From Oxalicibacterium flavum (GTDB lineage Bacteria > Pseudomonadota > Gammaproteobacteria > Burkholderiales > Burkholderiaceae_D), in contig NZ_BMCG01000002.1 in assembly GCF_014635065.1 (NCBI RefSeq), positions 558,001 through 622,000 on the forward strand: a stretch of 64,000 nt of DNA, in the 5' to 3' direction. This document shows positions 47,366 through 64,000 of the stretch, one piece after another; position 1 is the stretch's first letter, and each line of letters opens with the position of its first letter. The position numbers and the translations under genes are program-made. The notes below the pieces were generated by a model. The model was given only the letters and a program-made list of their open reading frames with translations, searched no databases and was not told the DNA's origin.

Positions 47366-49726
47366 ATGCCGATCTCCTTCTCGCGCCGTAAGAACTCCTC
47401 TCCCCTCAAGTCGGAGTGGCGCATCTTTCTGCTGCTGATGCTGGCATGCGCGGCCGTGCTCGGCTATGTCAACGGCCTCGGCCAGTCGGACCGCTTCATT
47501 TACGACACACTGATCAAGAGCATGGAACGGCCGGCCGACGACCGCATCGTGATCGTCGCCATCGACAAGGACAGCATTGCCGGACTCGGCCGCTGGCCAT
47601 GGAACCGCACGATCCACGCCAGGCTGCTCGACATCCTCACGCAAGGCAAGGCCAGGGCGGTCGGCATCGACATCATCTTTGCCGAACCCGACCTCGTCTC
47701 GGGCAGCGACACGCTGCTGGCACAGGCCATCAGCAGGAATCGGCATACCGTGCTGCCGGTCCTGATCGAGCGCACCACCACCGGCCTGCAGCCGACCCTG
47801 CCGCTGCCGCAACTCATGGATGCCGCGCATGCCGTCGGCCACACGCACTTCGGGTTCGATGCGGATGGCGTGGTACGCAGCGTGCTGCTGAGCGAAACGC
47901 TGGACGACGCTTCCTGGCCGCAATTCGCGCTCGCCGTCTATCAGGCAGGCATGGCGTCGCCCGTCTCCGCAAGCGGCGCAAGAGCGCGGGTCGGCGCGCG
48001 CGAACGCATCGCCTTCGCCGGACCGCCGGGCCACTTCCATACGGTGTCCTACATCGACGTGTTGACGGGCAGGATTGCGCCCTCCTTCTTCGAAGGCAAG
48101 TACGTACTGGTAGGCGCCAACGCTTCCGGCATTGCCACCATGTTCCCGACGCCAGTGACGACCACCAGCCATGTCATGTCCGGCGCCGAGATCAATGCCA
48201 ATATCCTGGCCGGAATGCTGGAGGAGCACGGCATCCATGAAGCGCGGCCATGGCTCAACGCCCTGTTCACCGTTCTCTTTACCTGCCTTGCCCTGTTCGC
48301 CTGCCTGTATCTGTCGCCGTTCAGCGCGTTGGGCGCGACCTTTCTGCTGCTGGCGGCCGTCGGCGCCTCCACCTATGCCCTGCTGTCGGCCGAGATCTGG
48401 TTGCCGCCGGCGGCAGCGGCATTGATGGTAATCGCCGTCTATCCGCTCTGGAACTGGCGGCGGCTGGAGGCCACGATCTTCTATCTGAGTGAGGAACTGG
48501 CACGCCTCAACCGCGAAACCACCATCGTGCTGCGTCACGAAGCGCCGGCACCGACCACGCACGACGCCGATTTTCTCGATCGCCAGATCGCCGCCATGCG
48601 CGTGGCCGCCGACCGTTCGCGCGACATCCACCAGTTCATCAGCGACAGCCTCAACAACATGCCCGACGCAACGCTGGTGCTGTCACAGTCCGGCGAGCTG
48701 CTGATGTGCAACCGCGTGGCAGAAATTTATCTGGCAAGCATCGGCATCGAAGGCAACCGGACGCCATCGCTGGCCGCGATCTTTTCCCGCCTCGAACCGC
48801 TGCCGCGCAGTCTCGTGCACGGCGCCGCCTGGCACGAAGCCTTGCTGCACGAGTCGGCGACGCACACGACGGAAATCGAAACCCGCGATGCCGACGGCCG
48901 CGAGTTCCTGCTCAAATCCACCGCTTCCCGCACCACCGACGGCGCCATGCTGGGCTGGATCGTGTCGCTGATCGACGTCACCACGCTGCGCGCGGCCGAG
49001 CGGCGGCGCGAGGAAAGCCTGAACTTCATCTCGCACGATCTGCGCGTGCCGCAATCGTCCATCCTCGCACTGATCCAGCTGCAGAAGAATCCGGCTACCG
49101 CCTTCGGCATGCCTGAATTCCTTGCGCGCATCGAGAAATCGGTGGAGTCCACCCTGCATCTGGCGGAGAGCTTCGTCCACCTCGCCAAGGCCGAGTCTCC
49201 GGCCTACCAGTTGCAGGACTCCGACTTCTGCTCGATGCTGGCCGAAGCGGCGGATACCATGTGGGCCTTCGCGCACAGCCGCTCGGTCGAAGTCGTCATC
49301 GATGCCCCGACGGAACATCTGTGGCTCACGGCCGACCGTTCCCTGATGATTCGCGCCATCGGCAATCTGCTGTCCAACGCCATCAAGTTCAGCCCCGAAG
49401 GCGAACGCGTCCATTGCCGTGTCCAAGCCGATTCCGGCATCAATGGCCCCTGCGTGCGATGCAGCATCCGCGACCATGGTCCCGGTATTCCGGCTGCCAA
49501 GCAGACCTTGATCTTCTCGCCGTTCCTGCGCGCCGACGATCAGGGGCAGGACGGCATCGGACTCGGACTCGCATTCGTGAAAATGGTGGTCGAACGACAC
49601 GGCGGCACGATCGAGGTGGACAGCACGGTCGGCACGGGCAGCACCTTCACCATCGTGCTGCCGTGCGCCATCGAGGAAGAACAGGACAGGTCATTGATAG
49701 AAAAACAGGAAGGAAGCAATCCATGA
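47366..49726 (+). CDS. CHASE2-PAS histidine kinase
   Basis: A 786-residue sensor kinase. It has TM1 at about 20-38, an extracytoplasmic CHASE2 domain (about 45-285, ADDRIVIVAIDKDSI...GRWPWNR...), three TM helices (about 290-370), a PAS-like domain (about 420-530), HisKA with phospho-acceptor His557 in FISHDLRVPQ, and HATPase_c (N box NLLSNAIKFS, G boxes DHGPGIP and GIGLGLAFVK). Its stop overlaps the response regulator start (ATGA), so the two form a coupled two-component pair. Confidence 0.93.
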   Translation: MPISFSRRKNSSPLKSEWRIFLLLMLACAAVLGYVNGLGQSDRFIYDTLIKSMERPADDRIVIVAIDKDSIAGLGRWPWNRTIHARLLDILTQGKARAVGIDIIFAEPDLVSGSDTLLAQAISRNRHTVLPVLIERTTTGLQPTLPLPQLMDAAHAVGHTHFGFDADGVVRSVLLSETLDDASWPQFALAVYQAGMASPVSASGARARVGARERIAFAGPPGHFHTVSYIDVLTGRIAPSFFEGKYVLVGANASGIATMFPTPVTTTSHVMSGAEINANILAGMLEEHGIHEARPWLNALFTVLFTCLALFACLYLSPFSALGATFLLLAAVGASTYALLSAEIWLPPAAAALMVIAVYPLWNWRRLEATIFYLSEELARLNRETTIVLRHEAPAPTTHDADFLDRQIAAMRVAADRSRDIHQFISDSLNNMPDATLVLSQSGELLMCNRVAEIYLASIGIEGNRTPSLAAIFSRLEPLPRSLVHGAAWHEALLHESATHTTEIETRDADGREFLLKSTASRTTDGAMLGWIVSLIDVTTLRAAERRREESLNFISHDLRVPQSSILALIQLQKNPATAFGMPEFLARIEKSVESTLHLAESFVHLAKAESPAYQLQDSDFCSMLAEAADTMWAFAHSRSVEVVIDAPTEHLWLTADRSLMIRAIGNLLSNAIKFSPEGERVHCRVQADSGINGPCVRCSIRDHGPGIPAAKQTLIFSPFLRADDQGQDGIGLGLAFVKMVVERHGGTIEVDSTVGTGSTFTIVLPCAIEEEQDRSLIEKQEGSNP

Positions 49727-50436
49727 ACATCGCCTCGCTGGAAGACGATCCGATCGAGTCCAGGCTGATTCATCAGGTCGTGACCAATGCCGGTCATACC
49801 TGCGCCACCTATCACACCGGCGCCGCCTTGCTGGAAGCGTTGCGCCAGCCGCAGCACGCGTGCGACATGCTGATCCTCGACTGGCATCTGCCGGACATGA
49901 CCGGCAAGGAAGTCATCGAATGGGTGCGCGCCAACCTGGGCGACAGCATCATCGTCATGTTCCTCACCAATCGCGTGCTGGAAGAAAACATCGTGGCCGG
50001 GCTGATGGCAGGCGCCGACGACTACATGACCAAGCCGATCCGCGAGGCCGAGCTGTCGGCGCGCATCCACGCCCTGTCCAAGCGCATCCGGCGTCCCCTC
50101 AATGGCGGAACCCCGGCGCCGGCAGCCGCTTCCAATGTGCTGGAAGCCGGCGTCTACAGTTTCGATCTGTTCCGCAAGGGCGTGACCGTGCGCGGCGTGC
50201 CGGTCGATCTCAAACCCAAGGAATTCGACATCGCGGTGCTGTTCTTCCAGAACATCGGTCAGTTGATCTCGCGCGAACACATCATGGAAAGCATCTGGGG
50301 GCGCGAACTGGTCATGACTTCGCGCACGCTCGACACCCACATGTCGCAAGTCCGCACCAAGCTGCAGCTCAAGCCGGACAACAACGTGCGCTTGACCACG
50401 CTCTACACGATCGGATACCGGCTCGACATGTTCTGA
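49723..50436 (+). CDS. OmpR/PhoB-type response regulator
   Basis: A 237-residue regulator with receiver domain (acid pair EDD at 7-9, phospho-acceptor D53 in LILDWHLPDM, K104 in MTKP) and C-terminal winged helix (about 135-235, LKPKEFDIAVLFFQN, SRTLDTHMSQVRTKL, TLYTIGYRL). Partner of the CHASE2 kinase, with overlapping genes. Confidence 0.94.
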   Translation: MNIASLEDDPIESRLIHQVVTNAGHTCATYHTGAALLEALRQPQHACDMLILDWHLPDMTGKEVIEWVRANLGDSIIVMFLTNRVLEENIVAGLMAGADDYMTKPIREAELSARIHALSKRIRRPLNGGTPAPAAASNVLEAGVYSFDLFRKGVTVRGVPVDLKPKEFDIAVLFFQNIGQLISREHIMESIWGRELVMTSRTLDTHMSQVRTKLQLKPDNNVRLTTLYTIGYRLDMF

Positions 50437-51138: not shown

Positions 51139-51215
<77 letters not shown>

Positions 51216-51372: not shown

Positions 51373-51927
51373 TCACGCCATGGCTGGCTCCGCGCCCTCC
51401 TTCTCACGTTCTTCGTTCTTGCGACGGCGACGCGCCATGAAACCGAACACGCCAAGACCCGCCAGCATCATGGCGTAGGTTTCCGGTTCCGGAACCGCCG
51501 AGATCGAAAGCGTGCCGCTGTAGGCAGCCGCCATCGCCGAACCCACGGCAAGCGCAGGTCCGGCAATACCGAATACCTTGATCACCAGCGGCCCTTCGAG
51601 GAACGACACCGTCGTGAAGCCGTACTGGCCGCCGCCCTGATTGCCGAAGCTGAACGGTACGCCATTCAGGGTCGCCGAGGTGAACTCGATATCGTCATAG
51701 GCATTGAGACTCGTCGTGATCAGACTGCCCAATGCCCAGCCGCTGACGGCAGGCGTAAACGTGAAGGTGTCTTCAAAAGCACCAGCCACGGACTGCGTGC
51801 CTCCGAAGACACCCGAGTACGTTCCGTTCGGGGAAGGCGAACCCAGATCGACATCGTAATTTGCCGCATACGCCCCGACACACGAGACGGCCAGCACGCC
51901 AGCCAAAATCATTTCTTTCATTTTCAT
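51373..51927 (-). CDS. PEP-CTERM sorting-domain exported protein
   Basis: A 184-residue protein: signal peptide (about 1-21, ending AYAA), a beta-rich Gly/Ser/Thr body, and a C-terminal sorting signal of the VPEPETYAMMLAGLGVFGF + ARRRRK form (PEP motif, TM, basic cluster). Such proteins are cleaved by EpsH-type exosortase and are usually made by EPS/biofilm bacteria; no exosortase is in this window. AGAGAG precedes ATG 51927. The upstream region is very AT-rich. Confidence 0.9.
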   Translation of the reverse strand: MKMKEMILAGVLAVSCVGAYAANYDVDLGSPSPNGTYSGVFGGTQSVAGAFEDTFTFTPAVSGWALGSLITTSLNAYDDIEFTSATLNGVPFSFGNQGGGQYGFTTVSFLEGPLVIKVFGIAGPALAVGSAMAAAYSGTLSISAVPEPETYAMMLAGLGVFGFMARRRRKNEEREKEGAEPAMA

Positions 51928-52152
51928 GTTGAACTCTCTAAAAGTTTGAATAAGAAAGACAGAACTGCCTGCCCTTGTCGCTTTGCAACCCGCGCCAGCT
52001 CTTGGTTTGCACATTTTTCAGGTGTGAGAAGCGCAAGCTGGCACGTCATCGATCATAAATAAAAATATTATCTTTTTAATATCAAAATATTAACATTTAA
52101 CATATTTAACTACAATATTTACAGAAAAAATACAATCTCAAATAATTAATTT

Positions 52153-52305: not shown

Positions 52306-53724
52306 TCAGGCGCGCTTATAGACATCGTCGAAACGCACGATGTCATCCTCTCCCAGATACGCGCCCGATTGCACCTCGATCAGGTGCAGCGGCACCATGC
52401 CCGGGTTCTCGAGACGGTGCGTGACGCCGATCGGAATGTAAATGGACTCGTTCTCGGTCAGCAGCTTCTCGACATCGCCGTTGGTGATGCGGGCAGTGCC
52501 GGTCACCACCACCCAGTGCTCGGCGCGATGGTGATGCATCTGCAGCGACAGTTTCTGCCCCGGATTGACGGTGATGCGCTTGACCTGGAAACGGTCGCCG
52601 CCATCGATGGATTCATAGCAGCCCCATGGCCGGTAGACGCGCGAATGATTCAGATGTTCGCTGCGCTCGCTGCCCTTCAGATGCTCGACCACGTTCTTGA
52701 CGCGCTGCACCTGATCCTTGTGCGTGATCAGCACCGCGTCCTTGGTCTCGACCACCACCACATCGTCGAGGCCGAGCACCGCCACGAAACGACTCTCGGC
52801 ACGGATCAACGAACCGCTGACATCTTCCGCATACACGTCGCCGCGAATCACGTTGCCGTTTTCGTCCGCGTCCTGCACCGCCGCCAGCGCCGACCACGAA
52901 CCGACATCGCTCCAGCCGATATCGGCCAGCACCACGACTGCATGGTCGGTATGCTCCATCACGGCGTAATCGATCGAGTCCGAAGGGCAGCCTGCGTACG
53001 AAAGCTCGTGCAGGCGGCAGAAGGTCATGTCCTTGTAGGCTTCGGCGATCGCCTTTTCGCAGCAGGCGGCGATTTCCGGACGCAGCCTGCGCAACTCTTC
53101 CAGATAGGCCGCTGCCGTGAAGACGAAGATGCCGCTGTTCCACGAATACTCGCCGCTATCGACGAATTGCCGCGCCGTCTCCAGATCCGGCTTCTCGACG
53201 AAGCGATCGACCTTGAATGCCCGATCCGAATCGGCTGCCACCTTGCCCCTGCGAATGTAACCGTAACCGGTTTCGGGACCGGTAGGCACGATGCCGAAAG
53301 TCACCAGCGATCCCTGCGCTGCCGCTTGCGTGGCGATCCGCACAGCCTGCTCGAAGGATGCGCCATCCGCGATCACATGATCGGCCGGCAGCACCAGCAT
53401 GACGGCATCCGGCGCAATGCCTTGCAGATAGGCCGCAGCCACGCCGACTGCCGGCGCGGTATTGCGTCCCTCTGGTTCGAGCAGGATGGCGGTCGGCGTC
53501 ACGCCGATCTGCCGCAACTGTTCGGCCACCATGAATCGATGATCGTTGCCGCAGACGATCAGCGGCGGCATGACCTCGCTCCATTCGTTCACGCGCAGCA
53601 CGGTTTCCTGCAACATGGTATTGGCGCCGACCAGCGGCAGCAGCTGCTTGGGCAAGGCGGAACGCGACAAGGGCCACAGGCGCGTGCCTGAACCGCCGGA
53701 AAGAATGACGGGATAGATTTTCAT
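52306..53724 (-). CDS. manC: mannose-1-phosphate guanylyltransferase / mannose-6-phosphate isomerase
   Basis: A 472-residue bifunctional type II enzyme (ManC/XanB/AlgA). The N-terminal nucleotidyltransferase has LSGGSGTRLWPLSR (8-21) with PKQLL and FVEKPD. The C-terminal cupin PMI domain has PGQKLSLQMHHHRAEHWVVV. It makes GDP-mannose, the donor for the GumH- and GumI-like transferases of this cluster. Start ATG 53724; last gene of the cluster, followed by a terminator. Confidence 0.96.
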   Translation of the reverse strand: MKIYPVILSGGSGTRLWPLSRSALPKQLLPLVGANTMLQETVLRVNEWSEVMPPLIVCGNDHRFMVAEQLRQIGVTPTAILLEPEGRNTAPAVGVAAAYLQGIAPDAVMLVLPADHVIADGASFEQAVRIATQAAAQGSLVTFGIVPTGPETGYGYIRRGKVAADSDRAFKVDRFVEKPDLETARQFVDSGEYSWNSGIFVFTAAAYLEELRRLRPEIAACCEKAIAEAYKDMTFCRLHELSYAGCPSDSIDYAVMEHTDHAVVVLADIGWSDVGSWSALAAVQDADENGNVIRGDVYAEDVSGSLIRAESRFVAVLGLDDVVVVETKDAVLITHKDQVQRVKNVVEHLKGSERSEHLNHSRVYRPWGCYESIDGGDRFQVKRITVNPGQKLSLQMHHHRAEHWVVVTGTARITNGDVEKLLTENESIYIPIGVTHRLENPGMVPLHLIEVQSGAYLGEDDIVRFDDVYKRA

Positions 53725-53839
53725 CTGGAACCTGCACTTTCTATAATGTGACATGAATATTCGGTACCGGCCGTCCGCGGCATCGCGCACGCGGTAACGG
53801 CGCACACGCCATGTCTGCGCATGGCATGCCGTGGCGCGC

Positions 53840-54577
53840 TCAAGCGCCCTCTCCCTGCCGATATCGATGGCAGAGCATGAAGAACACGAAGATATCGACG
53901 GTGTAGCGTCGCAGCAGCCGACGCGGCTCCAGCGCCAGCCGGTACAGCCACTCCATGCGCAGCCTGCGTACCAGCTTCGGTGCGCGCGGCTTGTTGCCGG
54001 CCCAGAAGTCGAACAGCGCACCGACGCCGGCTACCAGTCCCGCCTGCAGGCGGTCGCGGTTGGCGAGTATCCATTGCTCCTGCAAGGGATTGCCGAGCGC
54101 GACCAGCACCACGTCGGGCTGCGCCGCATTGATGCGGTCGACCAGCGCCGGATCCTGCATGCCGGCATAGCCGTCGCAGATACCGACCACCTGCTGCCCG
54201 AGACGGTTGCGCACATGCTCTTCCGCCCCGACCAGCGCCGTTGGCGTGCCGCCGATCAGGAACACGCGCAACGGATGCGGCGCACGACCGAACAGGTAGG
54301 GCGTGAAATCGGTGCCGTTCAGGTTGTCGGGGAAGCGCTGCCCATGCACCAGCCGCGCTGCCAGTTCCAGTCCGATGCCGTCGTTGGCGATGACGACACC
54401 CGGATCGTGCATGCGCGCCAGCCAGGGACGGCACTTGACGATGAAGTTGGTGTTGGCGAAGAACAGCGTGCGTGCCTGACCGTTCTGCAGCGCAGCCAGC
54501 AGTTCGGCAGCCAGCATGTCCGCCGTCGTCGCCCGTACCGGAAACCCGGCAATCGTCAACGTCTCGTGCATGGTCAT
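53840..54577 (-). CDS. WecG/TagA/CpsF (GT26) glycosyltransferase, GumM-like
   Basis: A 245-residue GT26 enzyme acting on a lipid-linked sugar at the inner membrane. Family signs are FFANTNFIVKCRP, NDGIGLELAARL, the GTDF motif near 88, LIGG and the C-terminal LGNPLQEQWI...GVGALFDFWAG...EWLYRLALEPRRLLRRY. In xanthan synthesis the GT26 GumM adds the second glucose to Glc-PP-undecaprenol. That role is inferred from the neighbours (GumK, GumH and GumL types). GGAGG is eight bases before ATG 54577. Confidence 0.85.
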   Translation of the reverse strand: MTMHETLTIAGFPVRATTADMLAAELLAALQNGQARTLFFANTNFIVKCRPWLARMHDPGVVIANDGIGLELAARLVHGQRFPDNLNGTDFTPYLFGRAPHPLRVFLIGGTPTALVGAEEHVRNRLGQQVVGICDGYAGMQDPALVDRINAAQPDVVLVALGNPLQEQWILANRDRLQAGLVAGVGALFDFWAGNKPRAPKLVRRLRMEWLYRLALEPRRLLRRYTVDIFVFFMLCHRYRQGEGA

Positions 54578-54607
54578 GGCAATATCCTCCGTGGCGTCAT
54601 CCGCGCG

Positions 54608-55930
54608 TCACCGTCGGCCGATCGCCACATACTCGATACCGCGCTCGCGCATGTGGCTGGTGTTGTAGAGATTGCGGCCGTCGAACACCAGTGGCGTCTT
54701 CAGCGACGACTTCATGAGGTTGAAGTTGGGTGTGCGGAATTCCTTCCACTCGGTGACGATCACCAGCGCATCCGCACCTTCGAGCGCGGCGGCCGCGGTC
54801 TTGGCATACGTCAGACGCGGGTCGTCACCGAAGATGCGCTGCGCTTCCGCCATCGCGACCGGATCGTAGGCCACCACGCTGGCGCCGGCCTGCCACAGGC
54901 CTTCGATCAGGACCCGGCTCGACGCCGCGCGCATGTCGTCGGTATTCGGCTTGAACGCCAGTCCCCACAGTGCGAACTTGCGGCCGCTCAGGTCCTTGCC
55001 GAAGCGCGCCGTGATCTTGTCGAGCAGGACCTTCTTCTGCGCCTCGTTGGCCGATTCCACCGCCTGCAGCACCTGCAGTTGCAAACCGCTCTCGTTGGCG
55101 GTACGGATCAGCGCCTGCACGTCCTTCGGAAAACACGAGCCACCATAGCCGCAACCGGCATACAGAAAGTCATAGCCGATGCGCGTATCGGAACCGATGC
55201 CGCGCCGCACTTCCTCGATGTCGGCACCGACCTTGTCGGCCAGATTCGCAAGTTCGTTCATGAACGAGATGCGCGTGGCGAGCATGGAGTTGGCCGCGTA
55301 CTTGGTCAGCTCGGCCGAGCGCACATCCATCACCATGATGCGGTCGTGATTGCGCGTGAACTGCGCGTAGAGTTCGCGCAACACCGAAGTCGCGCGCGCA
55401 TCGTCGGCGCCGATCACGATGCGGTCGGGCCGCATGAAGTCCTCCACCGCCGCGCCTTCCTTCAGGAATTCCGGGTTCGACACCACCGAGAATTCGAGGT
55501 CGAGCCCACGGCTGGAAAGCTCGTCGCGTACCGCCGCGCGCACCTTGTCTGCGGTACCGACCGGCACCGTCGACTTGTCGACGATGACCTTGTATTCGTT
55601 CATGTGGCGGCCGATGTTGCGCGCCGAAGCCAGCACGTACTGCAGATCGGCCGAGCCGTCCTCGTCGGGCGGCGTGCCGACCGCGATGAACTGCACGACG
55701 CCGAATTCCACGCTCTCGGCGACGTCGGTCGTGAAGCGCAGACGATCGGCCGCCACGTTGCGCCTGACCATGTCGAGCAGGCCCGGCTCGTGGATCGGCA
55801 TGCCGCCGTCCTTCAGGATCGCAATCTTGCGTTCGTCCAGATCGAGACACAGCACTTCATGGCCCATTTCGGCCAGGCAGGTTCCCGTAACGAGGCCGAC
55901 ATAGCCGGTACCGATGACAGTTATCTTCAT
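54608..55930 (-). CDS. ugd: UDP-glucose 6-dehydrogenase
   Basis: A 440-residue NAD-dependent enzyme oxidising UDP-glucose to UDP-glucuronate. The Rossmann loop is [12 protein letters not shown], catalytic Cys266 lies in [10 protein letters not shown], and the C-terminal domain has [13 protein letters not shown]. The product is the donor of GumK, encoded next door. 30 bp upstream of gumM-like; a 92-bp AT-richer gap separates it from gumK and may carry an extra promoter. Confidence 0.97.
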
Positions 55931-56022
55931 TGCTTACACTTTCGATAATTATTGAATTGACAACACTTCAGAGGAACACGTTTGAAAATGGTTCCGCACC
56001 ATGTAAAAAATTTCAGGTGGAT

Positions 56023-57180
56023 TCAGGCAACCTGGCTGTAGGCAAAGGCAGCGGCTTCCGTACGGCGCGCTTCCCCCGGCAATTGCGTATCCGCGTAATC
56101 CTGCGGTGCCAGCAGGCGGTCGACCACCTGCGACCATTCGAGCGGCGTGCGGAAAGTCTGGCGCGGCGCGGCCATGGCGGCGCGCATGGCGGCGGCGATC
56201 GAGTCGGCATCGTCCGGCGTGTAGCCGAAACGCGAACGGTAGTCACCGACGATGCCGCTCGGGCATACCGCCGGCAGCCCGAAGAAGTCGTACTGCATGA
56301 GCTTGAGCGAGGTGTCAGCCAGATAGGTCGGCAGCCCCGCCGCGCGATACGGCGCGAGGCCGATGGTCGCGTGCTTGATGTAGGGCAGCGTGGTCTTGTG
56401 CGGCATCTCGTCATGGACGTGCACGTTGTCGCCATAGCCGTCGTGGCGTCCGGTGCCGGAACCGATGATGTGGAAGGTCACTTCCGGGAACAGGCGCGAG
56501 GCGATCGCGAAGAAACCGGGATCGAACAGCATGGAGCCGACCGACACCGCGTGGATGCCCTCGCCGTACGGCGACGGATCGGCATGCTCGGCAATCGAGA
56601 AGTCGAAACCCTGCGGCACCACGTAGCGGTTGTCCGAACGCGGCATGCCATCGGCCATGAAACGCGACTTCAGGCACAGCGCATCCATCTGCGGTGCGAT
56701 GCGGTCGAAGGTGCGCTTGACGTAGGAGGCGACGTTGATCGTCTCCAGGTCATCCGAGGCGACGTAAATGGTGCGCGCGGCCGGATTCAGTTCGCGCACC
56801 AGCTCGAAGAACACCGGCGCGATGCCGCTTTCGAACACCACCGTGTCGGCTTCGCGTATCCATTCCACCAGCACCGGGCTGGGCCGGCCCACGTAGCGCC
56901 GGAACAGGAAGGATTCGAGCGGCTGGAACATCTCCTTGCGCATGTTGAACGGATGGATCAGCGTCTTCCACAGATAGCATTCGACACCCTCGTGCATCTC
57001 CTTGCGGTTGGCGAGCGAGCCGATCGACTTGCGCGGGTCCGACTTGAGATCAGACAGCAGGCTGTACTGGCACGAGAAGAAGCGCGTCGGCCCGCGCCTT
57101 GCCAGTTCTCCGGCAATGAAGTGCAAGCCGGCCTTGCGGCGACTGCGATAGTCATGCGCCGAAATCACCAGGTAGCTCAT
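56023..57180 (-). CDS. gumK: GumK-type beta-1,2-glucuronosyltransferase (GT70)
   Basis: A 385-residue membrane-associated transferase. Compared with X. campestris GumK from memory it matches over nearly its full length: YLVISAHDYRSRRKAGLHFI, VESGIA-type FESGIAPVF, GEGIHAVSVGSMLFDPGFF, FHIIGSGTGRHDGYGDNV, and SLKLMQYDFFGLPAVCP. Asp143 falls exactly where catalytic Asp157 does (14-residue shift), and Lys293/Gln296 where Lys307/Gln310 do. It would move GlcA from UDP-GlcA to the alpha-mannose of the lipid-linked trisaccharide. Start ATG 57180 with AAAGGA upstream. Confidence 0.93.
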   Translation of the reverse strand: MSYLVISAHDYRSRRKAGLHFIAGELARRGPTRFFSCQYSLLSDLKSDPRKSIGSLANRKEMHEGVECYLWKTLIHPFNMRKEMFQPLESFLFRRYVGRPSPVLVEWIREADTVVFESGIAPVFFELVRELNPAARTIYVASDDLETINVASYVKRTFDRIAPQMDALCLKSRFMADGMPRSDNRYVVPQGFDFSIAEHADPSPYGEGIHAVSVGSMLFDPGFFAIASRLFPEVTFHIIGSGTGRHDGYGDNVHVHDEMPHKTTLPYIKHATIGLAPYRAAGLPTYLADTSLKLMQYDFFGLPAVCPSGIVGDYRSRFGYTPDDADSIAAAMRAAMAAPRQTFRTPLEWSQVVDRLLAPQDYADTQLPGEARRTEAAAFAYSQVA

Positions 57181-57204
57181 GATATTTTCCTTTCCCAACG
57201 ACTG

Positions 57205-58671
57205 TCACGGATACGAGCGGCGCAAGATCAGACGTGCGGCGAAGCTTGCTGCCAGTGCGCGATACTCGCGCGCCATCACGAAATACAGCAGCAATGCATA
57301 GGACAGCGCGCCGATACCGATCAACAGTGTCAGCCGCAGCACCACCGGCAGGTCCTGCATCAGCGTAGCCGCGAACACCACCACCACCGCCATGAATGCC
57401 GACGCCACCAGCGCCGGCAGGATATTGAAGAAGTACTGCCGCCAGCCGACCGAGATCAGCGTGATGGCGCACCAGACCGAGACCGGGAACAGCAACAGCG
57501 CACGCAAGGAAAATGCCAGCGCGGTGGCGACCAGGCCGAAGCGCGTGAAGGCGACGAACGCACCGATATTGGTCACCGCGTACAGCAGCGCCAGGCGCGT
57601 CTGCCATTGCGGCTTGTTCTTCACCAGCATGATGCTCTGGTTGTAATAGCCGATCGAGGTCAGGAAGCCGATGATGGTGATGATCTGCATCACCGGCACC
57701 GACGGCAGCCACTTCTCGCCGAGCAACAGCAGCACCACATCGCGCGACAGGATGGCGAGGCCGACGAACAGCGGCGCCGTCACCATCGCCGTCAACGCGG
57801 TCGAGTGCAGGAAGGTCGCGCGCAACTGCTCGTCGTCGTCCTGCAGGCGCGAGAACGCCGGCAACGACACGCGCATCAGCGCGGTCGAGATCACGATGTT
57901 GAGCGTGTTGGTGATGCGCTTGCCGGTCGCATAGAAACCGGAAGCCGCCGCCCCCAGGTAATAGGTGACGAAGAAGATGTCGCTGTTCTGGTTGGCGAAG
58001 TTGGTGGCGGCGGTGGTTGCCACATACTTGCCATAGCGCACGATCTCGCGGAACGCGGTGCCTGAAAATCGCAGCGACGGCGTCCAGCCGGCCAGCGACC
58101 ACAACAGGACGAATTCGCACAGCGACGTCACGACCTGCTGCGCGATCAGGCTTTCGACGCCGTAGCCGTTGAACGCCATGCCGATGCCGACCGCGCCGCC
58201 GGCCACCACCGAGACGAAGGAGCGGATCGCCAGCGGACGGAAGTTCATCTGGTGCGTCAGGCGCGCCTCGTGGATGCGCGCCAGCCCGCTGCACAGGATC
58301 ATGAAGCTCACGCCGCGCACCACCTGCGACAGGCCCGGCGCATCCAGCCATTGCTCGAGCCACGGTGCCAGCACGAACAGGATGCCGAAGGCCGGCAGCG
58401 ACAGGCCGAGGCAGGTCCAGATACCGGTGCTGTAGTCCTCGTCGGTCGGCGCCTTCAGGCGCACGATGGCGGTCGCGATGCTGTCGAAGGCAATCGCCTT
58501 GAAACCCTGCACGATCAGGATCGCGGTCGCCAGCAGGCCGAACAGCGACGGCGCAAGCATGCGCGCCAGCACGATGAAGACCACCAGCGTGATCATCTGC
58601 CGCGCGAAATTGTCGATCAGCGACCACATGGTGCCGCGGTAGATCGCCTTCCTGACGGTGCCGGCTTCCAT
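57205..58671 (-). CDS. MOP-superfamily polysaccharide flippase (Wzx, GumJ role)
   Basis: A 488-residue integral membrane protein with about 12-14 TM helices. It begins GTMWSLIDNFARQMITLVVFIVLARMLAP (here shown in parts), the N-terminal pattern of the polysaccharide-export flippase family. It moves undecaprenyl-linked repeat units across the inner membrane. In the gum system GumJ has this job. Its ATG shares a base with the gumL stop (TGATG), so it is translationally coupled. Confidence 0.92.
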   Translation of the reverse strand: MEAGTVRKAIYRGTMWSLIDNFARQMITLVVFIVLARMLAPSLFGLLATAILIVQGFKAIAFDSIATAIVRLKAPTDEDYSTGIWTCLGLSLPAFGILFVLAPWLEQWLDAPGLSQVVRGVSFMILCSGLARIHEARLTHQMNFRPLAIRSFVSVVAGGAVGIGMAFNGYGVESLIAQQVVTSLCEFVLLWSLAGWTPSLRFSGTAFREIVRYGKYVATTAATNFANQNSDIFFVTYYLGAAASGFYATGKRITNTLNIVISTALMRVSLPAFSRLQDDDEQLRATFLHSTALTAMVTAPLFVGLAILSRDVVLLLLGEKWLPSVPVMQIITIIGFLTSIGYYNQSIMLVKNKPQWQTRLALLYAVTNIGAFVAFTRFGLVATALAFSLRALLLFPVSVWCAITLISVGWRQYFFNILPALVASAFMAVVVVFAATLMQDLPVVLRLTLLIGIGALSYALLLYFVMAREYRALAASFAARLILRRSYP

Positions 58672-59501
58672 CAGCGCAATGCCTCTTCCCACAGATCAAG
58701 CGGAAACGCCGCCAGCAGGCGCTGCGCGTCGAACACGGGCGGCGGCATGCCGCCCATCTCAAGCGCTTCCTCGATGCTGGACGCGGCCTCGATCGCGCCG
58801 CGTCCGGTACCCATCACGTAGTCGTTGTACTTGAAGATGTTTTCCTCGGGCGACAGGCGCAGGTAGCGCGCCGGAATGCCGTAGGCTTCGGCGATGATCA
58901 GGCCGTGCAGCGAACTGGCGATCACCATCTCGCCGCGCAGGATCTCGGCGATGCAACGGTTCCATGCATCGAGCGGCGAGACGATGTGCGCGATGCCCTT
59001 CTCACGCGCGATCTCCAGGTCGTGCAGGTTCGGCACGAACACGTAAGGCGATTGCGGATCGCGCGCGAAGCGGTCCGGGAACAGCGTCGGCATCAGCAGC
59101 GCCGGATCGCCATAGACCTCGGGCACGACGATGCCGCGCTGCTGCAGAAAGTCGCGCGTCAGCGGGCCGCGCACGGCGCGCACGTCGAGCGTCTCGAAGC
59201 GGTGTTCGGTGGCGGCGATCTTGCCATTCACGCCCGAGCCCCACACCACGTCGCCGCTCTGCGCGAAATGCAGGACCGAGCCGATCGCGAACAGCGTGTG
59301 CGCAGCGGCCGTCTCTTCTTCGAGCAGGTGCTGGTACGCGGCCAGAATCCTGGTCACGACCACGCGCGACAGGTGATCGCCGAAATTGAGGCGGCCACCC
59401 GACGGCGTCCAGTAAAACAGCTCCACGCGCGGAAACGCGCCCTGCCCACGCTCGTCGCCGGCGCCATTGGTCAGCCGATTCAGGATATTCATCAAACCCA
59501 T
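58671..59501 (-). CDS. gumL: GumL-type polysaccharide pyruvyltransferase
   Basis: A 276-residue enzyme of the polysaccharide pyruvyl transferase family, using PEP to make a ketal on a terminal sugar. Matches to X. campestris GumL recalled from memory are dense: FGDHLSRVVV, IGSVLHFA, VWGSGVNGKI, LDVRAVRGPLTR, VPEVYGDPALL, SSLHGLIIAEAYGIPARYL, FKYNDYVMGTGR, LAAFPLDLW. In xanthan it pyruvylates the terminal mannose. Start ATG 59501; an inner ATG at 59492 is possible. Confidence 0.9.
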   Translation of the reverse strand: MGLMNILNRLTNGAGDERGQGAFPRVELFYWTPSGGRLNFGDHLSRVVVTRILAAYQHLLEEETAAAHTLFAIGSVLHFAQSGDVVWGSGVNGKIAATEHRFETLDVRAVRGPLTRDFLQQRGIVVPEVYGDPALLMPTLFPDRFARDPQSPYVFVPNLHDLEIAREKGIAHIVSPLDAWNRCIAEILRGEMVIASSLHGLIIAEAYGIPARYLRLSPEENIFKYNDYVMGTGRGAIEAASSIEEALEMGGMPPPVFDAQRLLAAFPLDLWEEALR

Positions 59502-59559
59502 GTTCTGATCCGGAACGGGGCATGCCCGTATCCGGCCTGTGCTGTATTACCAAACGAAA

Positions 59560-60585
59560 TCATTGCGTGAGACCAAGCCGCTCGAATGTCATCGCCACAT
59601 GCGAATGAACGGATTGATCGGAGAAGTGCCCCTGCGTCACCGCCACGTCCGACGCGCTGATGTCGAACCGATGCTGCCGCATATGCATGACAAGGTCATG
59701 AAAATCGCCAGCCGCCACCACCATGTTGTCGTTGACGGTCTCGCGGAACCACGCGATGAAAGGCGTTTCGATGGCGAACACCGGCACGCCGAGCGAAATC
59801 GAATAGATGATGCTGCCGCTGACGATCATGTCGTCGTCGGCATGGCAGATCACCATGCCGGCCGACCGCACGATGAGTTCGCGCGCGAGCTCGTCGGAAA
59901 TGAATTCGGCGATCAGCGTCACGTTGGGACCGGCCAGCGACTGCAGACGTTGCAGATAATCGGGATCGGGACAGGAGCCGCAAACCACCACGTGCATGTC
60001 GGGCGGCAGGATCTCGAGCAGCCGGTCGATGTTCTTGTACGACAGCAGTCGGCCGAAGATCACGAAATAGCGCGACGGCAACCGCAGTTGCGCCACCGAT
60101 GCCGCTACCGCGTCGTCGACTTCGTACAGGGGATGCGGCACGTAGAACCGGTTGTCTTCCGCCAGATGGCCCGAATGCACCCAGCACAGGTCGAAGCACT
60201 TCTCATAGAGTGCGATGATGCGCCCCGCGAGGTCGCGGCTCTTGCCGACGGCGCTGTGCGGATAGACGTTGTGCCGCACGAAGATCGTGCGGCGCGAGAT
60301 GACGTTGTAGATCGCGATGCGCACGAACTCCTTGACCACGCCGAACGGACTGATGCGGCCGGTACGCGCATTGACGAAATTGTTGTCCGACCAGTTCAGG
60401 ATCAGGATGTCGAAGCGACGCTGGACGATGCTGCCCAGAATGCGCTTGAGCGGCGGCGCTTCGGCAATGTCACCGAAACCGGAGAGGATCTTCTTGAAAT
60501 TGTCTGTATAACGATTACCGTCGTTCTCGAAAGGAAAATACGCAATACGCAGGTTTTTCTTCAGGGGCTGCATCTTCATCACCAT
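59560..60585 (-). CDS. glycosyltransferase, GumI-like
   Basis: A 341-residue GT-B type transferase: N-terminal half with RTIFVRHNVYPHSAVGKSRD, C-terminal half with VIFGRLLSYKNIDRLLEILP and a donor-site region SAGMVICHADDDMIVSGSIIYSISLGVPVFA. The layout resembles GumI (beta-1,4-mannosyltransferase of xanthan), but the match is much weaker than for GumK, GumL and GumH, so the role is inferred from position. The start among several ATG/GTG codons near 60585 is uncertain. Confidence 0.75.
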   Translation of the reverse strand: MVMKMQPLKKNLRIAYFPFENDGNRYTDNFKKILSGFGDIAEAPPLKRILGSIVQRRFDILILNWSDNNFVNARTGRISPFGVVKEFVRIAIYNVISRRTIFVRHNVYPHSAVGKSRDLAGRIIALYEKCFDLCWVHSGHLAEDNRFYVPHPLYEVDDAVAASVAQLRLPSRYFVIFGRLLSYKNIDRLLEILPPDMHVVVCGSCPDPDYLQRLQSLAGPNVTLIAEFISDELARELIVRSAGMVICHADDDMIVSGSIIYSISLGVPVFAIETPFIAWFRETVNDNMVVAAGDFHDLVMHMRQHRFDISASDVAVTQGHFSDQSVHSHVAMTFERLGLTQ

Positions 60586-60646
60586 CTGGCAGGCTGATTG
60601 CCGTGAACTTTATGACAACATTCACGGCAAACTCGTTCACACCACG

Positions 60647-61702
60647 TCACTGAAAATATTTCTTGAGCACCGCCGCCTGCGGCTTGTCCACGCCGTCGCG
60701 CGGCTGAATGCTCATCGGATAATTGGCGGCCCACCACGCGCCTGCCGCCCAGTAGGTCCAGCCGCGCCACACGGTCGTGTCCGCCATTTGGGCCAGCATG
60801 GCATCCAGTGCCGCCAGGCAAGATTCGGAGCCCGGCGTGCCGAATTCGCCCAGGAACAGCTTCTGTCCATTCTGCTTCGCCCAGTCGGTCACGTTGGCGA
60901 AGATGCGGCCGAGACGATCGGGCTCCACGCATTCGGTGCCGGTTCCCGAATAGCCGGGATCGGCGTACTGGTGTGCCTCCAGCCAGGTACGTCCGAGCGG
61001 ATCGGTGAGCGCGGCGAACTCCCGGCCGTTGGATGTGCCGCCCTGGTCCTTGGTCCATTCGTGCGCGCCGCTCCAGCGTCCGCCGGCGACCAGGATCACG
61101 TTCTGCGCACCGGCTGCGCGCAATGCCTGCACGGTCTGGCGCGCAACAGGCGCCCACTGCGCGATGCTGATCTTGGCCGGCTCGTTCATCAGGCCGAAGA
61201 TGGCCTGCTGCGGATCGGGAAAGGCCGCCGCCAGCCGCTTCCACAGATCGACGAAGGCCGTTGCCGGCACCTCCGCCGAACCGATGGTCTTGCCGCGATA
61301 GGTGCCGTAGTTGTGCACGTCGAGAATCACGCACAGGCCGCGCGCGGCGGCCTGCTTGACCGTCTTGTCGATCTGCGCGAGTTCGGCCGTGCTGAGTTCG
61401 CCGTTCAACTCCGGCTGCACGCGCTCCCACAGAAACGGCAAGCGGATCGTGTTGCCTCCAAGCTGCTTCACGTAATCGAGATCGGCGTTGCGCGGATACA
61501 TGTAATCCTTGTTGAGCGTGCCCGGCAACTTGGAGCTGTTGAATTCGGCGCCCGCCAGATTCACGCCCTTCAACTGCCCGGTCGCCAAGCACTGGGCAGC
61601 CGCGCTGCCCGCCAACGCGAACAGCAGCATGCCTGCCATCCATCCGAACAGGGCAACGCCACCTCGCCTGTCACCACTTGCAGCCGGGAACATCTGTTTC
61701 AT
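60647..61702 (-). CDS. exported GH5-family glycoside hydrolase (endoglucanase-like)
   Basis: A 351-residue secreted enzyme: signal peptide (about 18-36, AGSAAA), then a (beta/alpha)8 GH5 barrel. The acid/base Glu174 is in GLMNEPAKI and the nucleophile Glu286 in LFLGEFGTP; VNLAGAEF, RLPFLWERVQP and DVHNYGTYRG are GH5 substrate-site motifs. AAGGAG is six bases before the ATG. A beta-1,4-glucanase would suit a cellulose-like gum backbone, so it may trim or release the polymer made by this cluster. Confidence 0.92.
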   Translation of the reverse strand: MKQMFPAASGDRRGGVALFGWMAGMLLFALAGSAAAQCLATGQLKGVNLAGAEFNSSKLPGTLNKDYMYPRNADLDYVKQLGGNTIRLPFLWERVQPELNGELSTAELAQIDKTVKQAAARGLCVILDVHNYGTYRGKTIGSAEVPATAFVDLWKRLAAAFPDPQQAIFGLMNEPAKISIAQWAPVARQTVQALRAAGAQNVILVAGGRWSGAHEWTKDQGGTSNGREFAALTDPLGRTWLEAHQYADPGYSGTGTECVEPDRLGRIFANVTDWAKQNGQKLFLGEFGTPGSESCLAALDAMLAQMADTTVWRGWTYWAAGAWWAANYPMSIQPRDGVDKPQAAVLKKYFQ

Positions 61703-61743
61703 TTCTTCTCCTTGTTAAACGAATTGCACGGCGATCACTTGCG

Positions 61744-62532
61744 CTAATGACGAACGATGTCGTCCGACAGGCGAATTCGCCGGTACCCGACGATCAGGTT
61801 CTTCAAGCCGCGTACGCGCCAGGCAACGATCCGCAAGTGATGCTGCCAGCGCGAACGGTCCGACCCATGTTCGATATCGCTGCCGTACCGCGTCTGCACC
61901 GTGCCGCGCACCAGATCGAACTTCGACTGCACGCACAGCGCCGGCACCGACTGGAAGACGCGGTGCCGTCTGGCGGCTGCCGACGAGCGCTTGTCGAACA
62001 GGAAGAAATCGACCGGGCTGTGACTCTTCACAGGCTCGACCAGCAACAGCCTGGCTGCGTCGCGCGTGATCGCGTAGGCACCGGCGCCCCAGCTTTCCGA
62101 GCGCACGCCGTACAGGCTGATCGGCAACACCGAAAGACTCTCCTTCATGTCCAGCAGGACCCGATGCCGGGTTCCCTCGAAACGCACGATGTCGAAATGG
62201 CCGAGGTGCTTGCCAAGATTCGTCAACACCATCGGCAAGCTGCTGCTGATATGCACATCGTCCTCGAACACCACGCCGAATCCGGCACTGTCTTCCGCAA
62301 TCCGGTTCCAGGCCTGGAAATGGCTGCGAAAGCAACCGATCGCGCCAGGCAGCCAACCATTGGCACGTGCCCGCAGCCGGGCAAACTCCATGCGCTCTTC
62401 CACGCTCATCGCCCTGCCGTCAACCGCATCGATGCGTTCGAACGGCAGACCCAGTTCGTCGAGCTTGCTGCGCATCGCCGCCAGCCGGTCGGTTGCACGC
62501 GCCAGATTGATCACATAAATCCTGAAATCCAT
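61744..62532 (-). CDS. glycosyltransferase family 25 (LPS-type)
   Basis: A 262-residue GT25 transferase. It begins IYVINLARATDRLAAM and has GAIGCFRSHFQAW and the acidic donor/metal motif VFEDD (E90-D92), then SWGAGAYAITRDAARLLL. GT25 enzymes add galactose or other sugars in LPS/EPS. The Xanthomonas gum cluster has no GT25, so it may add a sixth sugar or a branch here. GGAGAAGGAC precedes the ATG. Confidence 0.9.
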   Translation of the reverse strand: MDFRIYVINLARATDRLAAMRSKLDELGLPFERIDAVDGRAMSVEERMEFARLRARANGWLPGAIGCFRSHFQAWNRIAEDSAGFGVVFEDDVHISSSLPMVLTNLGKHLGHFDIVRFEGTRHRVLLDMKESLSVLPISLYGVRSESWGAGAYAITRDAARLLLVEPVKSHSPVDFFLFDKRSSAAARRHRVFQSVPALCVQSKFDLVRGTVQTRYGSDIEHGSDRSRWQHHLRIVAWRVRGLKNLIVGYRRIRLSDDIVRH

Positions 62533-62585
62533 GTCCTTCTCCCCGGCCCATGACCTGTATGGGCAACAGCGCTTCGACCAGATGC

Positions 62586-63725
62586 CTATCTCACCGCACT
62601 ACCTTCGCCTGCCAGCTTTCTGTAAATATCCACATAGCGGTCGGCGATATGCCGCCAGCTGTACTGCGCCGCAAAGCACTGCGCCGATTCGCGCCGCTGC
62701 GTGAAGGCTGCGGTGCCGCCGTCGTGCAGCGCCAGAATGCCCGCCACCTGTGCCGCGACATCGTCCCGGCCGATCAGCATGCCCAGGCCGGATTTCTCCA
62801 CCAGGTTGCGAAACGGCGGAATATCGCTGAGCAGCGGCGTCAGTCCCGCGCTCATCGCCTCGATCGGCGCAATGCCGAAACCTTCGTGGCGCGACAGGCA
62901 GATGTAATAGCCGGCCTGACCGATCAGACCGGCAAGCTCCTGTTCCGACGGGTTCTCGACGATCGTCACGCGCCCTTCCAGACCGGCGCTACGCACCCGC
63001 TCCTGCAGTTCGTCGCGCGTATGGTCGTATTCGCGGCCGGCGACGATGAGCCGCCACTCGGGCCGTGCGTTCGCCAGTTCCCTGAACAGCGCAATCGTTT
63101 CCAGCAACCCCTTGTTGACCGACCAGCGGCCGAAATAGATCATGGTCGGCGTCGGCGTGCGCGCGGCGCGATCGGCGTACTTCTCCACGTTCACGCCGTT
63201 CTCGATCACCGCCAGCCGCGGCGCATGCATGATGTGCGCGAATATCTCGCCGTCGTTCTCGCTGGTCCCCACCACGCGGTCGTAGGCCAGGGAAGTGCTG
63301 CGCGTGACGGTGTTGAAATAGACGCGCTTCAGACGCGAGGCAAAGGCCGTGTGAAAGAAGCCGCCATGGGTGGAAGCCACCAGCGGCTTGCGATGCAGCG
63401 GCTTGGTCAGCGCCAGATAGTCGTAGAAGAAATCGACGCCATGCACGTGCACCACGTCGGCATCGCGCACGTGCCGCAACACGCCCGGCGCCAGCGGATA
63501 ACGCGAGGAACCGCTGTACGGCAGACGCGTCACGCGTATGCCCTGCACCTCGTCCTCGGCCGGCAGGACCTGGTCCGAATTGCGGAACAGCCGGTCGAGC
63601 GTGACGATGCGCGGGCGATGTCCATGCTGCAGCAATTGATGGCGCGCGATGTTCTGCACCACATCCTCCATGCCGCCGACCGAAGGATGATACTGACGCA
63701 CCAGATGAACGACCTTAAGAGACAT
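62586..63725 (-). CDS. gumH: GumH-type alpha-1,3-mannosyltransferase (GT4)
   Basis: A 379-residue GT-B enzyme. VVHLVRQYHPSVGGMEDV starts the acceptor domain; VVHVHGVDFFYDYL, ASTHGGFFHTAFA, YFGRWSVNKGL, IVAGREYD and CLSRHEGFGIAPIEAMSAGLTPLLSDIPPF (here in pieces; E-x7-E motif) agree closely with GumH/AceC as I recall them. It would add mannose from GDP-Man to cellobiose-PP-undecaprenol. AAAGG precedes ATG 63725. The start overlaps the upstream polymerase-like gene by 11 bases. Confidence 0.9.
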   Translation of the reverse strand: MSLKVVHLVRQYHPSVGGMEDVVQNIARHQLLQHGHRPRIVTLDRLFRNSDQVLPAEDEVQGIRVTRLPYSGSSRYPLAPGVLRHVRDADVVHVHGVDFFYDYLALTKPLHRKPLVASTHGGFFHTAFASRLKRVYFNTVTRSTSLAYDRVVGTSENDGEIFAHIMHAPRLAVIENGVNVEKYADRAARTPTPTMIYFGRWSVNKGLLETIALFRELANARPEWRLIVAGREYDHTRDELQERVRSAGLEGRVTIVENPSEQELAGLIGQAGYYICLSRHEGFGIAPIEAMSAGLTPLLSDIPPFRNLVEKSGLGMLIGRDDVAAQVAGILALHDGGTAAFTQRRESAQCFAAQYSWRHIADRYVDIYRKLAGEGSAVR

Positions 63726-64000
63726 GACTTGCCTTTCTGTTTGCAGACTGCGGTGCCGGCGTATCGGCAAAGCCGCGCGCAACCGCAGGTTTTTCGCGCA
63801 GCGCGCAGCAGCCGATCAGGAACCACAGCACGCCGGCGGTCTTGAGCGCCATCAGCGAGGTGCCGCTGATGGCGAGGATCAGCGACATGTAGAGCGCCGC
63901 GTAGGCGCGGAAACGGATGCCCTGCTCGTCCTTCATGCGGATCATCCAGAAACCGATCCACAACGCCACGAAGAAAGGCAGGCCGAAACGCGTGAGCAGC
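63715..64000 (-). CDS. polymerase-like membrane protein, C-terminal end only (GumE/Wzy position)
   Basis: The frame is open to the window edge, so the N-terminus lies outside. The visible 95 residues hold two or three hydrophobic helices (LLTRFGLPFFVALWIGF, YAALYMSLILAISG, LKTAGVLWFLIGCC) and a hydrophilic tail. This matches the C-terminal end of O-antigen/EPS polymerases; in the gum order GumE lies upstream of GumH. The call rests on topology and position. Confidence 0.55.
   Translation of the reverse strand, partial: LLTRFGLPFFVALWIGFWMIRMKDEQGIRFRAYAALYMSLILAISGTSLMALKTAGVLWFLIGCCALREKPAVARGFADTPAPQSANRKASHVS

Follow-up and report, generated by a model that had tools for sequence, protein, structure and literature searches.

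Xanthan is best known as a product of the Xanthomonas family. Which polymer, then, would be made by the xanthan-type glycosyltransferase genes of the betaproteobacterium Oxalicibacterium flavum, and by which machinery would it be exported? These genes lie in a 64,000-nucleotide stretch of a 3.2 Mb genome (assembly GCF_014635065.1, contig NZ_BMCG01000002.1, positions 558,001 to 622,000 of the forward strand; G000:C2:558001-622000), hereafter the window. A preliminary description of positions 52306–64000 had proposed a new gum variant. The exopolysaccharide (EPS) gene run extends on the minus strand from 73573 to 52306 in window-equivalent coordinates, about 21 kb, and positions 52306–64000 form its distal, downstream half. 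With a probability of roughly two in three, the run is read here as a Wzx/Wzy-type EPS operon of the XrtB/methanolan-type eps class that carries a xanthan-type sugar-assembly part, to all appearance a complete one. The likely product is a pyruvylated, probably unacetylated xanthan-type polymer, accompanied by an exosortase-processed matrix protein.

In order of transcription, the genes encode EpsL, a GumD/WcaJ-type transferase, EpsD, EpsE, EpsF, EpsG, XrtB, EpsI, Wzy, GumH, a GT25 protein, a GH5 protein, a GumI-like protein, GumL, Wzx, GumK, Ugd, GumM and ManC, followed by a PEP-CTERM protein. Spacing and the common strand suggest that EpsL to ManC form a single operon. The Gum-type genes named in the preliminary description are all present as open frames on the minus strand. 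Its gene list was correct but omitted the GT25 and GH5 genes within the same stretch; the PEP-CTERM gene lies just past the end of that stretch, and the exosortase gene lies beyond 64000.

Xanthan-type sugar-assembly enzymes

Identities to Gum proteins were obtained by BLASTP against the gum locus of Xanthomonas sp. LMG 31884 (L096), from which GumB falls outside the stretch used. GumK is 57% identical to its Xanthomonas counterpart, GumM 54% (2e-84), GumH 53% (5e-150) and GumL 49% (2e-77), which bears out the presence of a xanthan-type transferase set in a betaproteobacterium. GumK scores 226 bits against PF22059 (GumK_N) and matches the X. campestris GumK structure (PDB 2hy7) with an E-value of 1.2e-140. 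The X. campestris residues Asp157, Lys307 and Gln310 correspond to residues 149, 299 and 302 of the open reading frame (ORF), or to 143, 293 and 296 counted from a later Met, exactly as described previously. Among 17 positions checked, Arg29, Asp157, Thr161, Ser186, Met189, Met231, Glu272, Met273, Tyr292, Tyr300, Asp303, Ser305, Lys307 and Gln310 are kept, and Ser160, Glu192 and Met306 are changed. Asp157 is catalytic and Lys307 contributes to donor specificity (PMC12768416; papers given by PMC number are cited from the parts of their text available to us). A text search of the available parts of the same paper met no mention of Met231 or Gln310.

GumM belongs to the WecG/TagA family (PF03808, 178 bits). 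Its PDB match, the N-acetylmannosaminyltransferase 7mpk (3.7e-23), says nothing on the donor, and the protein is predicted to be the β-1,4-glucosyltransferase that adds the second backbone glucose. GumL matches PF04230 (PS_pyruv_trans) at 46 bits, and no relative was found for it in the PDB. The undecaprenyl-phosphate glucose-1-phosphate transferase expected nearby is present past 64000 (TIGR03023, 514 bits against a cut-off of 410.75) and is 41% identical to Xanthomonas GumD. Wzx matches PF13440 at 237 bits and GumJ at 25% identity (5e-27). Wzy is 27% identical to GumE (1e-27) and has no Pfam or NCBIfam match. ManC scores 707 bits against TIGR01479 over residues 102–570 of ORF 52306–54021, and its real start is probably near 53724. 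The GT26, Wzx, polymerase end, ugd and manC assignments thus stand, with this adjustment to the manC start.

The distribution of these genes was followed in genome samples and fetched loci. GumK (PF22059, E ≤ 0.001) was found in three of 13 genomes of the genus, namely that of the window and two congeners (G402 and G410), in 11 of 392 family-sample genomes (ten over the cut-off) and in six of 399 order-sample genomes (five over the cut-off, three of them above 200 bits). The GumK scan returned 100 relatives, from which 80 loci were kept; no query matched G368 or G259, whose PF22059 hits are weak. The locus tally, with seven duplicates dropped, comprises 30 loci with GumK, GumH and Wzy; 15 GumH+Wzy loci without GumK in the stretch, drawn from the 32 of 392 family genomes that hold a GumE-like Wzy (G652 first via XrtB); 11 XrtB loci without the GumH+Wzy pair, the remainder of 12 fetched; and 47 loci with a Xanthomonas-type GumE. 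The 15 and the 11 are samples. Of the 47, 46 are titled Lysobacteraceae, the NCBI name for Xanthomonadaceae, and one is of unresolved family. Another 12 GumK loci, two of them with GH5, were not counted because the stretch fetched has no GumH or no Wzy. The GumE-like Wzy lies in three separate pieces in one genome (G593:C1:3016448-3017639) and has its frame broken by a single stop in G461 and in one of the G492 copies; the polymer loci of these three genomes are possibly decaying.

The GumI-like protein has no BLASTP match to Xanthomonas GumI at 1e-3 and no Pfam match over the cut-off. Despite this, profile–profile alignment (hhalign) supports the earlier assignment: the match to the GT94 GumI profile has a probability of 98.3 and an E-value of 2.1e-14 over 268 columns, against probabilities of 0.15 for GumH and 1.4 for GumK as negative controls. 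The HN and H residues invariant across the GT94 alignment are present, and Asn106 aligns with GumI Asn108, a residue discussed in PMC13104830. The protein is predicted to be the terminal β-mannosyltransferase.

A different end to the side chain is an unlikely but serious alternative, in which the core of two glucoses, mannose and glucuronate is kept and the GT94 protein, the GT25 protein or both attach a further sugar; the side chain would then be acetan-like or new, and pyruvylated at that end. The missing BLASTP match to GumI speaks for it, as do identities of only 17–20% to seven other GT94 rows. The GT25 gene, which sits between GumH and GH5, is also found near four of the 29 other GumK+GumH+Wzy loci (L089, L107, L115 and L121; 35–39% identity to that of the window) and may represent a recurrent side-chain addition. 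Against this, GumI-type and GumL genes occur together in the same nine of the 30 GumK+GumH+Wzy loci, window included, by profile the protein matches GumI but neither GumH nor GumK, and G402 and G410 have no GT25 yet retain GumI and GumL.

Export chassis and exosortase

Past 64000, where gumB, gumC, gumD and gumE had been sought, the GumD-type transferase and the GumE-like Wzy were indeed found, whereas the export genes are EpsE, EpsF, EpsG and EpsL, together with XrtB, EpsI and EpsD. EpsL, EpsD, EpsE, EpsF and EpsG each score above their NCBIfam cut-offs, XrtB scores 399 bits against TIGR03113 (cut-off 275) and EpsI is of type B (NF045609, 280 bits; cut-off 220). Gum-type export, in the sense of GumB/GumC without EpsG/EpsL, is not what the locus holds; EpsF is 25% identical to part of Xanthomonas GumC. 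The label of a new gum variant is therefore apt for the transferases but not for the cluster as a whole, whose export genes are of EpsD-E-F-G-XrtB-EpsI-EpsL type and group in trees with XrtB loci. XrtB contains the stretches DACAG, NVIR and LHGF, which we take to hold the Cys/Arg/His triad. Haft et al. (PMC1569441) linked the eps system to PEP-CTERM proteins. EpsG carries an MshE-type cyclic di-GMP-binding domain (NF053729, 44 bits; cut-off 38), mentioned for exopolysaccharide biosynthesis in Methylobacillus (PMC5013675), which makes control by cyclic di-GMP plausible.

The PEP-CTERM protein encoded beside the locus matches NF038126 (116 bits; cut-off 50), TIGR02595 (26 bits; cut-off 16) and PF07589, and is a candidate substrate of XrtB. 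Its gene is preceded by an intergenic stretch of 31% G+C in a region of about 62% G+C. The host genome has two PEP-CTERM matches, one adjoining the EPS operon. The second protein (G000:C4:155876-155956, 229 residues) is encoded away from the EPS locus, directly after an ABC-transporter ATPase-like gene. Both XrtB and a detected PEP-CTERM protein occur in one of 13 congeneric genomes, in each case that of the window, although divergent members may escape the short PEP-CTERM model. Neither the cluster of G402 (on a 2.06 Mb contig) nor that of G410 contains XrtB, EpsI, EpsD or GT25. In G402, only about 270 bases separate ManC from the flanking gene, too few for a PEP-CTERM gene; in G410, ManC runs off the contig, hence this side is not visible.

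XrtB is common in the family (154 of 294 genomes at E ≤ 0.001; 113 over the cut-off). It occurs in one of the 30 GumK+GumH+Wzy loci, that of the window, and 25 of these 30 stretches include EpsG, where XrtB would adjoin; no other GumK locus examined shows an exosortase. Among the 15 GumH+Wzy loci without GumK, XrtB is present in five, all of genus g163. Three genomes of genus g170, G476 (Glaciimonas immobilis), G456 and G492, hold two or three separate GumK loci each and a separate XrtB match in each.

Was XrtB gained here or lost in the relatives? Trees of GumK, of XrtB, EpsI and EpsD, of EpsE+F+G and of Wzy+GumH+GumM were built with a quick method throughout. A recent gain by this species of XrtB and EpsI, with EpsD and the PEP-CTERM gene, was favoured at first, since 12 of 13 congeneric genomes are without XrtB; the 29 other GumK+GumH+Wzy loci show none either, and the position of the window is not firm in trees of XrtB, EpsI or EpsD taken singly. 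The trees of chassis and core then spoke against a recent gain. The EpsE+F+G tree (49 loci) joins the trio of window, G402 and G410 to XrtB loci from other genera in the family (support 98 with three XrtB loci; 87 for a 17-row XrtB group), apart from the chassis of XrtB-less GumH loci of the same family. Grouping with the latter gave p = 0.0085 in the approximately unbiased test, the group having been named after the tree was seen. Furthermore, the Wzy+GumH+GumM set of the trio groups with the XrtB+GumH loci of g163 (96), and the window is sister to G402 and G410 in the trees of GumK, Wzy+GumH+GumM, GH5 and EpsE+F+G. Since the chassis goes with XrtB loci and the core with the g163 XrtB+GumH loci, the ancestor of the trio probably had XrtB. 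Loss in the ancestor of G402 and G410 is thus the better reading, and a recent gain appears improbable.

GH5 endoglucanase

The GH5 protein matches PF00150 (165 bits) and PDB chains named cellulase (5hpc and 4w7u, about 1e-98), contains the catalytic motifs LMNEP and GEFG, and has an N-terminus that looks signal-like by eye. Of 50 GH5 ORFs, five of which repeat a contig already in the set, 49 contain both motifs; in the remaining one, G473, the contig ends ahead of the first motif. GH5 was found in the same stretch in 43 of 45 loci with GumH and a window-type Wzy, that is, in 28 of the 30 with GumK and in all 15 of those fetched without it. By contrast, it was found in none of the 47 Xanthomonas-type gum loci, a count that covers the fetched stretches and not the rest of those genomes, and in none of the 11 XrtB loci without the GumH+Wzy pair. 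GH5 thus tracks GumH and the GumE-like Wzy and not the eps chassis, and its substrate would most simply be the cellulose-like backbone of this polymer, on which it is predicted to act.

The names of its nearest solved relatives would also suit an ordinary secreted cellulase used for feeding on plant material and placed here by chance. We consider this explanation unlikely, given the 43 of 45 against 0 of 11 association and the near-universal retention of both catalytic motifs. A putative endoglucanase is drawn in the gum-like cluster of Kozakia (PMC5050591), and literature searches turned up no functional study of an endoglucanase in such clusters. In another EPS locus, deletion of the gene for an exported GH16 protein altered colony morphology (PMC11340318).

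That GH5 occurs in loci of Alpha-, Beta- and Gammaproteobacteria but not in Xanthomonas-type loci suggests loss in the latter, although rooting is weak and several rows sit on long branches. A wider proposal, which we advance tentatively and at slightly under even odds, is that GH5 is a standing part of the xanthan-type machinery outside the Xanthomonas family, from which the Xanthomonas form derives by loss, and that in this one species the polymer is also coupled to a PEP-CTERM matrix protein processed by the exosortase, making the locus a xanthan/methanolan-type hybrid.

Origin and genomic site

The GumK tree used 63 of 96 rows, leaving out seven same-contig duplicates and 26 Xanthomonas rows, with three alphaproteobacterial rows, not themselves one side of a branch, as the outgroup. 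The GumK of the window falls in a 17-row betaproteobacterial clade (support 100) with Oxalicibacterium-group, Herbaspirillum, Thiobacillus and Glaciimonas-group rows. Xanthomonas-type rows form a separate group near G388, which is of the same order, and Rhodoferax, whose loci carry GH5. The Wzy+GumH+GumM tree, with seven Xanthomonas-type loci kept, likewise joins G388 to the Xanthomonas-type rows (100). The preliminary description had considered transfer between lineages possible; import of the gum genes from Xanthomonas, to which the 49–57% identities of GumK, GumH, GumM and GumL might point, is rejected by the GumK tree, fits neither the chassis, the GH5 gene nor the G+C content as a recent event, and is scarcely credible.

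In the ten GumK-less congeners, tRNA-Pro(TGG) and tRNA-Arg(TCT) follow glmM with 834–1444 bases between them, a gap in which nothing matches any locus protein; in the window, 22,664 bases separate the two tRNA genes. A recent island was not supported by composition: the cluster has 62.9% G+C against 62.0% in the flanks, which gives no sign of recent arrival (no integrase search was made). In a GlmM tree, the single gene that serves here as genus tree, the three carriers stand on one side of a branch (95/96 for DNA, 99/97 for protein), their internal order being left open; this agrees with a single gain or with loss in the remaining genomes.

Comparison with known systems

The Xanthomonas gum cluster (gumB–M) shares with this locus the GumD, GumM, GumH, GumK, GumI, GumL, GumJ and GumE roles, GumI by profile only. 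In contrast to gum, this locus has no detected GumF or GumG; its outer membrane polysaccharide export and polysaccharide co-polymerase proteins are EpsE and EpsF, with a separate tyrosine kinase, EpsG; it has extra GH5, GT25, EpsD, EpsI, XrtB and EpsL; and Ugd and ManC are encoded inside. The 47 Xanthomonas-type loci reach 10 kb upstream of GumK, so that the absence of EpsG and EpsL there is covered in part.

With the XrtB/PEP-CTERM eps loci of methanolan type (Methylobacillus sp. 12S; PMC1569441), the shared genes are EpsL, the GumD/EpsB-type transferase, EpsD–G, XrtB (EpsH) and EpsI, and the eps genes are ordered as in XrtB loci of the family. Unlike this locus, none of the 12 XrtB loci fetched has GumK, GumI or GumL, and 11 of the 12 have neither a GumE-like Wzy nor GH5 nor a close GumH (one with a 28% GT4 match). 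Acetan and gum-like clusters of the acetic acid bacteria Komagataeibacter, Kozakia and Gluconacetobacter have homologues of gumB, gumC, gumD, gumE, gumH, gumJ, gumK and gumM with ugd, and the acetan cluster, unlike this locus, includes rhamnosyl- and additional glucosyltransferases (PMC5050591). In Gluconacetobacter tumulisoli L138, a GH5 gene lies near GumK, as here, but no XrtB, GumI or GumL was found there. GumK+GH5 loci of Glaciimonas, Thiobacillus, Marinobacter, Cellvibrio and others share the EpsG/F/E chassis, GumE-like Wzy, GumH, GH5, GumK and GumM; unlike this locus, they show no XrtB or EpsI, and most are without GumI and GumL. Literature searches found no description of these eps-type loci and, apart from PMC5050591, none of this kind of locus; the available parts of PMC4195743, on Herbaspirillum EPS, hold nothing on gum-type genes in that locus.

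Proposed pathway

The locus would work like xanthan synthesis in its transferases and like methanolan-type eps systems in export and sorting. The GumD/WcaJ-type enzyme would place glucose-1-phosphate on undecaprenyl phosphate, and GumM would attach a second glucose. GumH, as an α-1,3-mannosyltransferase, would add α-mannose and GumK glucuronate, with GDP-mannose supplied by ManC and UDP-glucuronate by Ugd. The GT94 enzyme would then add the terminal mannose, which GumL would pyruvylate. The repeat unit would be flipped by Wzx, polymerised by the GumE-like Wzy and exported via EpsF, EpsG, EpsE and EpsL. Exported GH5 may cleave the β-1,4-glucan backbone, in the periplasm or outside, and so set chain length or release chains. 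XrtB, with EpsI and EpsD, would process the adjacent PEP-CTERM protein, which may help to keep the polymer on the cell surface.

Several observations weigh against this reading. On the enzyme side, Ser160 and Glu192 of the GumK interdomain hydrogen-bond network (PMC12768416) are changed, the GumI assignment rests on 19% identity, and the GT25 protein, whose role is unexplained, could add a sugar. GH5 was not seen at the Glaciimonas GumK locus G476b or the Rhodoblastus locus L130. No relative of GumF or GumG was found among the ORFs of 86 kb around the locus (BLASTP with Xanthomonas GumF/GumG, 1e-10), and for this reason the product would not be classical xanthan. As neither gum-type export nor the acetyltransferases were found, the locus is, strictly speaking, not a gum cluster.

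On the sorting side, regulation of PEP-CTERM genes by PrsR and sigma-54 is usual, though not defining, for XrtB/PEP-CTERM eps systems. No sigma-54-like site lies upstream of the PEP-CTERM gene (six looser sites occur in 50500–75000, none there), and PrsR (TIGR02915) is over the cut-off in none of the 13 congeneric genomes, where general response-regulator matches all fall below it; the usual regulation is thus not seen. Sigma-54 control of this gene was also rejected because the eight one-mismatch sites of the window stand at chance level (7.5 expected). Disruption of epsH, the exosortase gene of Methylobacillus, left methanolan unaffected (PMC1569441), so that synthesis of the polymer itself would not be expected to depend on XrtB. 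A precedent in favour of the matrix role is that overexpression of a PEP-CTERM protein in an rpoN1 mutant moved exopolysaccharide from the soluble to the bound form; against its use here, the authors of that study class their system as distinct in type from the Methylobacillus one and suppose that flocs may persist when pepA alone is lost (PMC9850573).

Feature coordinates and neighbouring genes

Table 1. Features of the EPS locus and its borders, in window or window-equivalent coordinates.
Feature	Coordinates	Strand	Basis or remark
tRNA-Arg(TCT)	51139..51215	+	far-side island border
FxDxF-family PEP-CTERM protein	51373..52014	-	likely start near 51927; NF038126, TIGR02595, PF07589
ManC/AlgA-type GDP-mannose pyrophosphorylase / phosphomannose isomerase	52306..53724	-	TIGR01479
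GumM-type GT26	53840..54577	-	PF03808; BLASTP to Xanthomonas GumM
UDP-glucose 6-dehydrogenase (Ugd)	54608..55930	-	PF03721/PF00984/PF03720; TIGR03026, 458 bits
GumK-type GT70 glucuronosyltransferase	56023..57198	-	PF22059; PDB 2hy7; residues mapped
Wzx flippase (GumJ role)	57205..58692	-	PF13440; BLASTP to GumJ
GumL-type ketal-pyruvate transferase	58671..59501	-	PF04230; BLASTP to GumL
Divergent GumI-type GT94	59560..60585	-	profile–profile match (hhalign)
GH5 endo-β-1,4-glucanase (predicted)	60647..61702	-	PF00150; PDB cellulase chains
GT25 family glycosyltransferase	61744..62532	-	PF01755, 79 bits
GumH-type GT4	62586..63782	-	PF00534 etc.; ORF start upstream of likely Met
GumE-like Wzy polymerase	63715..65055	-	BLASTP to GumE; 3′ end inside window, to 64000
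EpsI	65055-65825 (window-equivalent)	-	NCBIfam EpsI-B over cut-off
XrtB	65761-66666 (window-equivalent)	-	NCBIfam over cut-off
EpsG	66666-67544 (window-equivalent)	-	NCBIfam over cut-off
EpsF	67569-68963 (window-equivalent)	-	NCBIfam over cut-off
EpsE	69016-69801 (window-equivalent)	-	NCBIfam over cut-off
EpsD	69827-70849 (window-equivalent)	-	NCBIfam over cut-off
GumD/WcaJ-type transferase	70873-72333 (window-equivalent)	-	NCBIfam WcaJ over cut-off
EpsL	72269-73573 (window-equivalent)	-	NCBIfam over cut-off
tRNA-Pro(TGG)	73880-73956 (window-equivalent)		other island border

Beside the EPS island, window positions 45587–50436 hold a large sensor-kinase-like gene (47366–49726) and a response-regulator-like gene, both named by eye. 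The former has a 68% identical counterpart near the island in G402 and is a candidate regulator. At about 91000–107000 in window-equivalent coordinates (C2:649000-665000), a gene caller that relies on codon usage learned from the rest predicts no genes. This stretch is bounded by rmlA-like and UDP-sugar dehydrogenase-like genes (by eye), contains four PF13579 glycosyltransferase matches, and is probably an O-antigen or second polysaccharide island of atypical composition.

Implications

The xanthan sugar-assembly part appears as a module that rides on different export machines. Outside the Xanthomonas family, this module is nearly always accompanied (43 of 45 loci) by an endoglucanase suited to its own cellulose-like backbone, which hints that xanthan-type polymers with a trimming step built in exist in nature; the regular pairing makes a role in length control testable. 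The genome has one XrtB and two detected PEP-CTERM proteins, and its polymer genes recur in two congeners from which XrtB is missing; together these offer a compact natural comparison, which bears on the still unsettled role of exosortases in exopolysaccharide systems.

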